Assembly (NCBI GenBank): GCA_964035015.1
Contig: OZ036003.1
Location: forward strand, 5,466,254-5,530,253
DNA from: Corallium rubrum
Taxonomy: Eukaryota > Cnidaria > Anthozoa > Scleralcyonacea > Coralliidae
Direction of reading: 5' to 3'
DNA length: 64,000 nucleotides
Both the position numbers and the translations under genes were made by a program. Numbering within the stretch: the stretch's first letter is position 1; each line of letters opens with the position of its first letter. Under the pieces are notes generated by a model. That model did not search any database. It worked only from the letters and a program-made list of their open reading frames with translations, and was not told the origin of the DNA. This document shows, in pieces, positions 51,301 to 63,300 of this stretch.

Positions 51301-54300
51301 AAACCACAAGATTTACGCTACGTTAGTTAAGTTCCGATGACGCGAGGGAAAAGGATATAATCTCATAAGATTATAATGTTTGTTAAGATAGTTTAGTTAC
51401 CACAATATTGTCACAACATCGTTAAAGTCCGTTTCAGCAACCGCAACTTTTGTTATTGCCAGGCAATTGCTGGTACAGTTAGATAAATAGAGAAAAACAA
51501 TTGTAGTAAATAGGAAATGAACTCAGTTGTGGTTGATCATGACGTTCATAGAGAAAGGCATGTATTTGTATAGGGTACATAAGCGAGAGCAAAAACGTTG
51601 TACAGATAGATCGAATTATTAGACTGCAAATGAATGTGATTAAATAGAAGAAAACGAAAGAAAGATACAGTCCCTGAATTGTGTGGATCAGCGCGCGAGA
51701 GAAGATTCCTCTTTTCGCAGTGAGGAAATTCTCGACAAATACTGAAATTTCTTTCTCAACCTTTTCCAATATATGCAAGTCTCCCCCTAAAGCATTCAAC
51801 TTACTTGGCGCCCCTCCCCTCTCCCCCCTAAAAAGCAAACAAACCCAACAAAAAACCTCGCATAACCCTCTACCATAAACAATGTACATTTTTGGCGAAC
51901 AGAGAGTGTTTGTCAGTGTATTGCCATTACTGGTTTTTCACCAATCTCAGTTCTCATATTATAAACGAAATAAATTGTGAATAAAAATTGTAAAATCTGT
52001 ATAACTAAATTCGTACGTGGAACTGAATTTTCTTTAGGTCAATGGAAGTTCTCTTGGAATGGAATCAAAGAGAAGACACAGCGAACTTTATCAAAGTATG
52101 TCTCGACGCTTAAAAACACAGCTTGAAACAAAGTAACGAATTTATATACATATAGCGTAGTACACCCCGACAACGTTACATTAGTATTATCATGAACATT
52201 TGTCCTTTTTTTAGACGCAACAAGAAACCCTTGGACATACCTTACCACTGTGTTCGTTCTTATTGAAACCAGTTCAACGAATTTTGAAGTATCATTTATT
52301 ACTTGGGGTTGGTATTCAGTTGGTGTCTTGTTGGTTAATTAGCTGGCTGGTTGGTTGGTTGGCTGGTTGGTTGGTTGGTTGGTTGATTAGTTGGGTGGGT
52401 GGTTGGTTGGTTGGTTGGTTGATTGATGAGTTGGCTGCATGGTTGGTTGGTTGGTTGGTTGGTTGGTTGGTTGGTTGGTTGGTTGGTTGGTTGGTTGGTT
52501 GGTTGATTGGTTGATTAGTTGGCTGGTTGGTCAGTTGGTTGGTTGGTTGGTTGGTTGGTTGGTTGGTTGGTTGGTTGGTTGGTTGGTTGGTTGGTTGGTT
52601 GGTTGGTTGGTTGGTTGATTAGTTGATTAGTTGGTTGGTGGTTGGTTGATTGGTTGGTTGGTTGGTTGGTTGGTTGATTAGTTGGCTGGTTGGTTGGTTG
52701 GTTGGTTGGTTGGTTGGTTGGTTGGTTGGTTGGTTGGTTAGTTGGCTGGTCGGTCAGTTGGTTGGTTGGTTGGTTGGTTGGTTGGTTGGTTGGTTGGTTG
52801 GTTGGTTGGTTGATTAGTTGGTTGGTGGTTGGTTGGTTGGTTGGTTGGTTGGTTGGTTGGCTGGTTGGTTGGTTGGTTGGTTGGTTGGTTGGTTGGTTGG
52901 TTGTGTAGTTCGTTGGTTAAATTGGCTTCCACCAGAGCTTACATATTCATTCACATATTTTATCTTTTTATCCGTGTAGAATATTGCGAAACATTACAAG
53001 CAATCCGAAGATGAAGAAGGATTTGAAGTAATTCAGGTAACAACTTGATTTTTAGCTAGTTACCATTGTAAAACGCCTATCTCAGCCTATATATCAGAAC
53101 GTACGCTGTAGACCACGTGATTATAGAAAACGCGCAGAAATTCATTTCTCTTCTATGAGGGTCGTACAGGGGGGTCCCGGGCACGGTTCACGGGTGCAAA
53201 AAATAACAAATCACGAGTCACGGATACGCAAATTTCATTTTCTCGAATCACGTAATAATAAGCTTATTTGAGGTTTCTACGGAAGATTATAGCCCTGTAA
53301 TATAGTATTTTTATCACTAGAATAGGTATGTACGCGATGTCCTCGATATTCTGATGTTTTTGGACCTTCCGGTGTTTTTGGACTTTTTGCTATTCCTCAT
53401 TGTTGCTACACCTCAATTTCTCAAAATCACGAGAAATAAGTCATAAAATCACGAATATCAGTTACTATTTCAGCTTTTTCATGGGTCACGCGAACTCCTT
53501 GGGTCACGGATCACGAAGGACAACTTTTTAAAGTAACGTTTCTCAGGAAGTATTAACCCCATAATCACGTATCACGAAAATACCCCTGTACGACCCTCTT
53601 CTATATCTTCGTGTGTCGTGTGGTATTCATATTTTTTCTTGGTTTAGAAAGCTTTGGCGACCATGACAAATGTTGCCAAACACATAAACGACATGAAAAG
53701 GAAGCATGAAGATGCCGTTCATCTCCAGGTAGAATTCAAAAATTCTCTCTCTAATTGTTAAATACAAAATATGCTTATTCAAAAGCTCATCGTCATCATC
53801 ATCCTTTAAATATGTTTTCCGTGCTTTCGTTTTATTTAGGAAATACAAAGTGTTTTGATCGACTACGAGGTACAGTTAACGTTTAGCGTGTCTTATACAC
53901 CCGTAAAAACCTGCAGGATTGATAGAACTATCGTTCTAATCTTATCAGATATAATGGAAGGGGAACAGGATAGGAAACTTACGAAACCGGAAACGATGTT
54001 TGCACAAATTACTCTGGTAATTATACACTGATAAGCTGCTAATGCAACGTAATGGGTGGTCCCACATGGCTAAACTCAGACACTGGTGAACTTAAGTGAT
54101 ATTCACTATTGTTTAATTTTAGCAATAGCTGATCCTGACCATGTGGGACCACTCTTTAAGTGCATTAGCCGCTTATACGTGTATAATTAGGTTTGCAGGG
54201 TCATTCCTGTAAAGCGCTCTCAATTCGTCAGAATTTATGCAAAAAAATAAAATAGATATCGTTAGAAAGCTATGAATTTGTAGAATACAATGGTGTCTTT

Positions 54301-60300: not shown

Positions 60301-63300
60301 ACAACAACAACAACAACAACAACAACAACAACAACAACAACAACAACAACAACAACAACAACAACAACAACAACAACAACAACAACAACAACAACAACAA
60401 CAACAACAACAACAACAACAACAACAACAACAACAACAACAACAACAACAACAACAACAACAACAACAACAACAACAACAACAACAACAACAACAACAAC
60501 AACAACAACAACAACAACAACAACAACAACAACAACAACAACAACAACAACAACAACAACAACAACAACAACAACAACAACAACAACAACAACAACAACA
60601 ACAACAACAACAACAACAACAACAACAACAACAACAACAACAACAACAACAACAACAACAACAACAACAACAACAACAACAACAACAACAACAACAACAA
60701 CAACAACAACAACAACAACAACAACAACAACAACAACAACAACAACAACAACAACAACAACAACAACAACAACAACAACAACAACAACAACAACAACAAC
60801 AACAACAACAACAACAACAACAACAACAACAACAACAACAACAAAACAAAGTGTGATTTAACAAAGCAACACAACGTTGTTCATGACTTTCTCAAACTCA
60901 GTAATAATTCATGAGGAAAACGTAATGTTACCGAGTTAGTACTGAGTTACCATGTTGCCAGGTACTGAGACGCTGTTGTGAAATGTGGTAATAAACGCCC
61001 ATAAATTAAGACAAGTTTTACCTCAAATTTCTCTTTAAATACTGATTTGTTTGAGAAGCTATACCATACACTCGAAAGCCGTTTATTATCTGATTTAAAA
61101 ACACCTCGAAGTGAGTTAAAAAACTCGGCTATCGCCTCGTTTTCAAACACACTTCTTGGTGTTTTCAAATCGGTTAATAAACGGCTATTCGTGTATGATA
61201 TATTACGTAAAGAATTTGAAATAAGAATTGTTTCTTATTTCAAATTATTTAAGAAACAAGTCTACGTTCTTACGAGTGTCTGTGTGTTAAGTTTTTCATC
61301 GCCTATTAATTTTCCCAACAGGCTCGGAACATTGATACGAAACAAGTTTGGCTTTTAGAGTTAAAACGACGTTTGTTGGACAGTTACGCAGCGGCAGTGC
61401 CCATGAAGGTATTGGAACTTGAAGATTTCAATGCTTGGATTTGAATATTGTATTAATGGCTCTTGTTTGTATTGTTTCTTCTAAGGCAAAGCAAATGATT
61501 CTTGGAAATAGTACGGAAGACTGTGAAAAGGAAAATGCTGGTACGATATTTGACCCATTGTCTGGACCAACAACGACACAAGGCAACAACTAACCAACCA
61601 TGCAACTAACCAATGAACTACACAGCTTTGCAAACGACTAACCAACTAACATACTAATCAACCAACCATCCAACTAACCAACCAACTAACCAACTAACCA
61701 ACCCACCCAATTAACCAACCAACCATCCAACTAACCAACCAACCAATCAACCAACCAACCAATTAACCAACCAACCAACTAATTAACCAAACAGTTAACC
61801 AACCAACCAACCAACCAACCAACCAACCAACCAACCAACCAACCAACCAACCAACCAATTAACCAACCAATTAATTAACCAACTAACTAACCAACCAACC
61901 AATTAATTAACCAACCAACCAACCAGTTACCAACATATTAACCAACCAATTAACCAACCAACCAATTAACCAACCAACCAACCAACCAACCAACCAACCA
62001 ATTAACCAACCAACCAATTAACCAACCAACCAACCAACCATTTACCAACCTATTAACTAACCAACCAACCAACCAACCAATTAATTAACCAACCAATTAA
62101 CCAACCAACCAATTAACCAACCAATTAACCAACCAACCAGTTACCAACCTATTAACCAACCAACCAATTAACCAACTAACCAATTAATTAACCAACCAAC
62201 TAACCAACCAACCAACCAACCAGTTAACCAACCAATTAACCAAACAATTAACCAAACAATTAATTAACCACCCAATTAACCAACCAACCAATTAAACAAC
62301 CAATCAGTTACCAACCTATTAACCAACCAACCAATTAACCAACTAACCAACCAACCAATCAATTAACTAACCAACCAATTAACCAGCCAACCAAACAACC
62401 AACCAACCAACCAACCAACCAACCAACCAACCAATTAACCAACCAATTAATTAACCAACCAACTAACTAACCAACCAACCAATTAATTAACCAACCAACC
62501 AACCAACCAGTTACCAACATATTAACCAACCAATTAACCAACCAACCAATTAACCAACCAACCAACCAACCAACCAACCAACCAACCAACCAATTGACCA
62601 ACCAACCAATTAACCAACCAACCAACCAACCAACCAACCAACCATTTACCAACCTATTAACCAACCAACCAACCAACCAACCAATTAATTAACCAACCAA
62701 TTAACCAACCAACCAATTAACCAACCAATTAACCAACCAACCAACCAGTTACCAACCTATTAACCAACCAACCAATTAACCAACTAACCAATTAATTAAC
62801 CAACCAACTAACCAACCAACCAGTTAACCAACCAATTAACCAAACAATTAAACAAACAATTAATTAACCACCCAATTAACCAACCAACCAATTAAACAAC
62901 CAATCAGTTACCAACCTATTAACCAACCAACCAATTAACCAACTAACCAACCAACCAATCAATTAACTAACCAACCAATTAACCAGCCAACCAACCAACC
63001 AACCAATTAACCAACCAACCAACCAACCAATTAACCAACCAACCAACCAACCAACCAACCAACCAACCAACTAACCAACCAACCAACCAACCAATTAACC
63101 AACCAACCAATTAACCAACCAACAAACTAACCAACCAACCAACCAACCAATTAACCAATCAACCAATCAATCAACCAACCAATTAACCAACCAACTAACA
63201 AGTTAACCAACCTTATTGAAACTATTAGAACCAGAAAGTGATCAAAAGTCTTCAGTCAGTAATACAAGAAAAGGCGCAAACCAACAACGAACACATTCAA

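Follow-up and report, generated by a model that had tools for sequence, protein, structure and literature searches.

A probably neutral pair of complementary AACC/GGTT microsatellites brackets eight exons of a RhoGEF gene in Corallium rubrum

Introduction

In Caenorhabditis elegans, deletion of reverse-complementary matches (RCMs) in the introns flanking exons has established that such matches promote both back-splicing into circular RNA (circRNA) and exon skipping; in 6 of 6 genes tested, deleting one match left circles undetectable or very low (PMC8330042). Circles whose introns hold RCMs are also regulated by ADARs, through editing and beyond (PMC8938519). Microsatellites feature among the pairing sequences described: in fish, AC tracts pair with complementary GT tracts and so bridge introns (Lin et al. 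2016, described in PMC7404189 and PMC9198270), and simple repeats make up 1.3% of the reverse-complementary sequences in circRNA-flanking introns of human blood cells (PMC7359566). Here we analyse a 64,000-nucleotide stretch of the Corallium rubrum genome (assembly GCA_964035015.1, contig OZ036003.1, forward strand), referred to in its entirety as the window, in which a GGTT array and an AACC array occupy introns 6 and 14 of a RhoGEF gene. An initial reading of the letters of the window, the original prediction, proposed that these arrays pair in the pre-mRNA and loop out exons 7–14. We find that the array pair is real, that it is probably neutral and that further such pairs exist in the same genome.

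Like an RCM-driven circRNA locus of C. elegans, the RhoGEF gene carries complementary tracts in both introns that flank the exons in question, with a strong predicted duplex, but its arms are tetranucleotide microsatellites, stand 8.7 kb apart and are known from sequence alone. With the AC/GT-bridged introns of fish it shares complementary microsatellites, which in fish pair in the pre-mRNA with an influence on splicing and here could pair; the fish tracts, however, sit at opposite ends of one intron, whereas the RhoGEF arms lie in two introns, eight exons apart. Mouse Sfmbt2 intron 10 likewise combines complementary (AC)n and (GT)n microsatellites into an intronic RNA duplex, but as the arms of short local hairpins that give miRNAs, not as brackets around exons (PMC3212979). 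At the DNA level, the inverted complementary couples of simple sequence repeats (SSRs) in PMC2644718 also present one unit in opposite orientations close together, but these are adjacent compound microsatellites, while the AACC/GGTT pairs here are 0.3–8.7 kb apart with exons between. The original prediction called microsatellite arms unusual; the fish tracts and the human simple repeats show that microsatellites as RNA pairing arms are not unprecedented. Our literature searches, of limited coverage with subscription papers mostly outside it, found no work devoted to microsatellite arms bracketing exons.

Results

Gene structure and the two arrays

The gene, on the + strand as are all of its exons and both arrays, encodes a DH-PH RhoGEF. 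Joined exons 6–16 translate into 275 residues with no stop, in which Pfam matches place a RhoGEF domain (PF00621, residues 7–64, E 1.7e-13) ahead of an SOS1/NGEF-like PH domain (PF22697, residues 91–186, E 4.1e-11), the domain order that marks this class; the top-scoring PDB chains are VAV and P-Rex1. The PLEKHG label given at first reading we take as an assumption, the protein presumably resembling human PLEKHG1-3. Exon numbering also follows the first reading, with exons 1–5 placed by eye only. Splice borders were set by reading frame and AG/GT borders alone. Exon 6 (52215–52307), the end of the DH core, has an open frame, a ttag acceptor, the donor G/GTTGGT (the slash marks the border) and the RhoGEF Pfam match. 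It is followed by intron 6 (52308–52979; 672 nt; 43% G, 47% T). Exons 7–10 (52980–53036, 53648–53728, 53840–53869, 54948–54986) and 11–14 (56122–56238, 56694–56789, 61322–61408, 61486–61540) have AG/GT borders and a continuous frame, open across every junction, and contribute 562 nt of exon sequence to the interval 52980–61540. Intron 14 (61541–63228; 1,688 nt; 48% A, 37% C) then ends at the acceptor attag/AACC of exon 15 (63229–63306); an exon 15 start at 63249 was rejected for its in-frame stop, the start at 63229 preserving the frame. The two Pfam matches confirm that exons 7–14 encode the last part of the DH domain together with the entire PH domain. The limits first given for the region, 52308 to 63215, are exact at the start and fall 13 nt short of the end of intron 14.

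The GGTT array, which would be the 5' pairing arm, occupies 52344–52918 (Tandem Repeats Finder: unit TGGT, 144 copies, 87% matches, score 863), and the AACC array, the 3' arm, occupies 61640–63199 (384 copies, 75% matches, score 1432). Their lengths of 575 nt and 1,560 nt agree with the approximately 600 bases and 1.6 kb originally reported. Both are unmistakable tandem arrays that chance would not produce, and their inverted placement 8.7 kb apart, with eight exons between, is a separate matter. The GGTT arm is interrupted by GATTAGTT and GGCT, and the AACC arm, read as complement, by AATT (30), AGTT (9) and AATTAATT (8). We considered whether the arrays are an inverted duplicate of each other and rejected this despite 27 non-pure 20-mers common to both arms, as the interruption spectra differ and the array flanks show weak matches only (11–15 nt, E 0.2 or worse). 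Within the AACC array, the 60-base lines 62321–62380 and 62921–62980 are identical at a distance of 600 nt, the pattern that doubling of a block of some 600 nt would leave; self-matching across the entire array is 67% at lag 600, not above that at short lags (70% at 28).

Predicted pairing and its consequences

An inverted-repeat search paired 52333–52897 with 62648–63212 over 565 nt at 78% complementarity, the longest perfect complement being 62 nt (52443–52504 with 61797–61858). RNAduplex predicted an arm-to-arm duplex of -921.6 kcal/mol with 551 pairs, in keeping with the claim that the arrays are reverse complements able to form a duplex of hundreds of pairs. Self-folds of the arms were far weaker, at -54.4 kcal/mol for the GGUU arm (-112.3 allowing quadruplexes) and -12.0 for the AACC arm, and in silico neither outcompetes arm-to-arm pairing.

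Pairing of these matches in the nascent transcript would bring together the donor of exon 14 and the acceptor of exon 7, yielding a 562-nt circular RNA with an exon 6–15 skipped, frameshifted mRNA as by-product. The energy of the duplex relative to the self-folds speaks for such an outcome, as does C. elegans, where matches are needed for circles and also promote skipping (PMC8330042). Even so, we regard both the circle and its by-product as unlikely, if far from negligible. The arms are separated by 8.7 kb, with eight exons in the loop, and intron 6 would need to remain in the transcript during synthesis of a further 8.7 kb; it may already have been excised by the time intron 14 is made. Quadruplexes are open to the GGUU arm, and a TGG-rich array in intron 15 can occupy part of the AACC arm (predicted duplex -195). 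The (ACA)n array of intron 12 (60124–60849, +, Tandem Repeats Finder) is a weaker potential partner of the GGUU arm (-307 kcal/mol). Strong hairpins within single introns are possible competitors in folding but would not engage the two arms: a palindromic element at 54.2 kb in intron 9 (54189–54844, 81% self-complementary), another at 56.8 kb in intron 12 (56801–57286, 91%) and a second long hairpin of intron 12 at 57.5 kb (57535–58480, limits by eye, fold energy -559 kcal/mol).

Because the 562 nt of exons 7–14 are not a multiple of three, skipping shifts the frame, and we rejected a clean exon-skipping isoform without the PH domain on that ground; the frame after an exon 6–15 skip is open through exons 15 and 16, yet is not the protein's frame. 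The circle itself would have stops in all three frames. Of the pairing interpretation, the geometry and the strong predicted duplex stand, while the sequence gave no sign that the pairing was selected and the exon 6–15 skip is out of frame.

Splice signals around the arrays

A weak exon 6 donor was considered and rejected: G/GTTGGT has the best U1 pairing among 11 donors compared (-8.1). As intron 6 is moreover 672 nt long, it would normally be removed before intron 14 is transcribed. Pairing is most likely handicapped both by distance and by this probable early removal.

The arrays could instead act singly. The donor heptamer GGTTGGT recurs 93 times within intron 6, so that the GGTT array copies the exon 6 donor, and the AACC array adds branch-point-like CTAAC/TTAAC motifs (49 per kb in intron 14 vs 0–4 per kb in seven other introns counted) and displaces the pyrimidine tract; blurred splice sites or retention of intron 14 would result. 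Retention would add 17 codons before a stop, ending the protein downstream of the PH domain. We think this distinctly unlikely, as the motif counts follow from composition alone and, among the 11 donors, the true one of exon 6 has the strongest U1 pairing.

AACC/GGTT arrays across the genome

The assembly comprises 474 Mb in 312 contigs, the window lying on the contig labelled C20 (5466254–5530253). Overlapping matches of the 24-mer TGGT x6 number 9,086 on the forward strand and 8,730 on the reverse genome-wide, and hence show little strand bias. One kind of run end, a pattern that sees part of the arrays (2 listed vs 6 for TGGT x6 in the first 11.2 Mb of C1), has 176 and 181 matches on the two strands. 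Among the matches listed (100 places), it marks 65 arrays in 175.7 Mb, 34 vs 31 by strand; this span covers all of C1, C8 and C12 and the listed part of C13, while C2–C7 and C9–C11, which have no listed match, fall outside it. Pairs 10–200 kb apart among the matches listed were direct in 5 cases and inverted in 3. Same-strand runs separated by under 2 kb were joined into one array, a treatment that would hide direct pairs lying very close together.

An upper density of 1.9 arrays per Mb follows when the 17,816 TGGT x6 matches are divided by about 19, the mean number per array in the first five listed. Densities of 0.37–1.9 arrays per Mb predict 0.3–8.6 inverted pairs closer than 10 kb genome-wide, with a probability of at least three such pairs that rises from 0.004 to 0.99. 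The genome holds at least three such pairs among the matches listed, at the RhoGEF locus and at the loci L009 and L010, so that an excess is possible, but the count lies within the wide range open to chance. A second run end, listed completely (51 places), yielded one more close pair, a direct one on C22 (L029, 1274–1799 and 6151–7075). That pair is a segmental tandem duplication of about 5 kb, which carries CTTG/GGTT and GTGAA arrays, now unequal in length. Twenty stretches around listed arrays were examined, L009 and L010 being chosen since the listing showed both strands there; the other 18 had one orientation only in a scan for AACC/GGTT regions of at least 40 nt.

At L009 (C8:37964001-37972000), a GGTT array (2621–3326) and an AACC array (4074–4727) bracket an exon of 379 nt on the - strand (3948–3570) with good splice sites. 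In the sense direction the arms are 654 nt of GGUU and 706 nt of AACC, with a predicted duplex of -958 and 558 pairs. The exon matches the band 3 cytoplasmic domain below the family cut-off (E 4.4e-5), and an open stretch upstream of it matches the same domain at E 1.6e-11, from which we take the gene to be SLC4-like. At L010 (C13:3484001-3493000; arrays spanning 3303–5107), an AACC tract (3545–3724) that terminates an AACT array and a GGTT array (4051–5107) bracket an exon of 125 nt (3796–3920); the arms, about 190 and 1,057 nt long, have a predicted duplex of -350 with 188 pairs. The joined exons match Tim44 (E 6.2e-26), while the bracketed and preceding exons alone match weakly (E 0.0009), so the TIM44 name rests mostly on downstream exons. 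Array-to-array distances are 8.7 kb at the RhoGEF gene, 0.75 kb at L009 and 0.3 kb at L010. As the latter two would loop far less RNA, they appear to be better circular RNA candidates than the RhoGEF locus.

Other repeats in the window

Tandem arrays with periods up to 10 make up 13.3% of the bases of the window. A second complementary pair is formed by an ACTCC array (2611–2929) and a TGGAG array (13431–15854), with a duplex of -421 kcal/mol; among the window's longer arrays there are three same-unit pairs, AACC and ACTCC inverted and ACAG direct. The 2.4-kb TGGAG array sits between exons of a gene on the - strand that we take to be ESF1-like, from its resemblance to ESF1 and with the last exon judged by eye. 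The ACTCC array lies about 470 nt beyond the likely stop codon, so these arrays do not bracket introns, and the gene was rejected as a second bracketed case in the window.

Intron 12 of the RhoGEF gene contains, at 58707–59791, two open stretches with reading frames that look by eye like reverse transcriptase; a segment near 59568 of this putative retroelement is repeated near 59979, and a TGA-repeat tail lies at about 59808. The near-perfect (ACA)242 array (60124–60849, 99% matches) is directly downstream. Three copies of another element lie at 46663–47020, 48747–49104 and 734–1064; complementarity of the first copy is 97% with the second and 96% with the third. The long intron that precedes the exon at about 50.8 kb holds the first and second copies, inverted relative to each other. 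The sole Rfam match at gathering thresholds is tRNA-like (46080–46151, -, 37.1 bits), perhaps the head of a SINE.

Discussion

We consider it likely that introns 6 and 14 contain two neutral microsatellites that expanded independently, in opposite orientation by coincidence, in a microsatellite-rich genome. On this account the RNA copies of the arrays could pair on paper, ordinary splicing would be the usual outcome, and any leakage of back-spliced circle or frameshifted exon 6–15 product would be low and unregulated. The arrays, their orientation, the gene structure, the pairing energy and part of the genome background are directly supported by the analysis, whereas the splicing outcome, its timing and the neutrality of the arrays are inferred.

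Several observations weigh against independent neutral expansion. First, among the matches listed, neighbouring arrays less than 10 kb apart form 2 pairs, both inverted, vs 0.24 pairs expected; with 0.12 inverted pairs expected, two or more have a probability of 0.007, a figure that would speak for a true excess of inverted pairs if the subset is fair, and the lowest density considered would make three of them unlikely genome-wide (P 0.004). Second, all 3 of the known close inverted AACC/GGTT pairs bracket coding exons. Third, introns 6 and 14 give the best cross-intron match of the gene (a 644-column alignment, 81%, bit score 539) at E 1e-6 or better over 14 intron intervals, with introns 4 and 5 taken as one and borders upstream of exon 6 set by eye. 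The sole other cross-intron match, between introns 2 and 12, is weak (bit score 112), and the six remaining matches lie inside single introns. Fourth, intron 14 has the weakest U1 pairing among the donors compared (exon 14, -4.1) and the poorest pyrimidine tract among 11 acceptors (exon 15, 0.56), and may therefore be spliced slowly. Lastly, shuffling the arrays in blocks of 4-mers gave -611 kcal/mol, with 0 of 100 shuffles as strong as the real pair.

An excess of inverted pairs, if real, could mean that such pairs are made jointly by a DNA process, such as in-array inversion or strand template switching, and illegitimate recombination has been proposed as a source of inverted complementary couples (PMC2644718, citing Jakupciak and Wells). 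The same source describes these couples as rare. The tally here is small, with three inverted pairs known among the matches listed vs one direct, the direct being the segmental duplication, and the RhoGEF arms largely differ in their interruptions. The exons between the arms moreover keep the orientation of the gene wherever neighbouring exons could be followed, which argues that simple inversion of the segment did not happen. We therefore hold a joint origin to be very unlikely. Nor is the bracketing of coding exons improbable in itself, given spacers of 0.3 to 0.75 kb inside genes.

The 4-mer block shuffle suggested a selected register between the arms (-611 vs -922), but it breaks up pure runs and was not counted as a fair control. 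When runs and interruptions were instead reordered inside each array, 100 such segment shuffles averaged -924.7 kcal/mol (sd 8.3) vs -921.6 for the real pair, and 57 of 100 were at least as strong. The real order of runs and interruptions thus pairs no better than a shuffled one, and a selected register was rejected; these shuffles give no sign of co-adaptation between the arms, unlike what would be expected of an RCM pair under selection.

With independent, neutral expansion as the preferred account, we think it most doubtful of all that complementary AACC/GGTT microsatellites repeatedly flank exons and serve as ready-made circular RNA arms, the three genes so far being the RhoGEF, SLC4-like and TIM44 genes. 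If they did, the fast mutation of array length would make circle output a tunable, heritable trait set by the length of a microsatellite. Microsatellites would then rank beside transposons as common circRNA arms, and repeat length would act as a dial. The three natural cases, at 8.7, 0.75 and 0.3 kb, would allow the effect of distance to be told apart from that of arm length. If the arrays do not drive back-splicing, they would provide a useful negative, namely that complementary tracts of 190 to 700+ bases are tolerated around coding exons.

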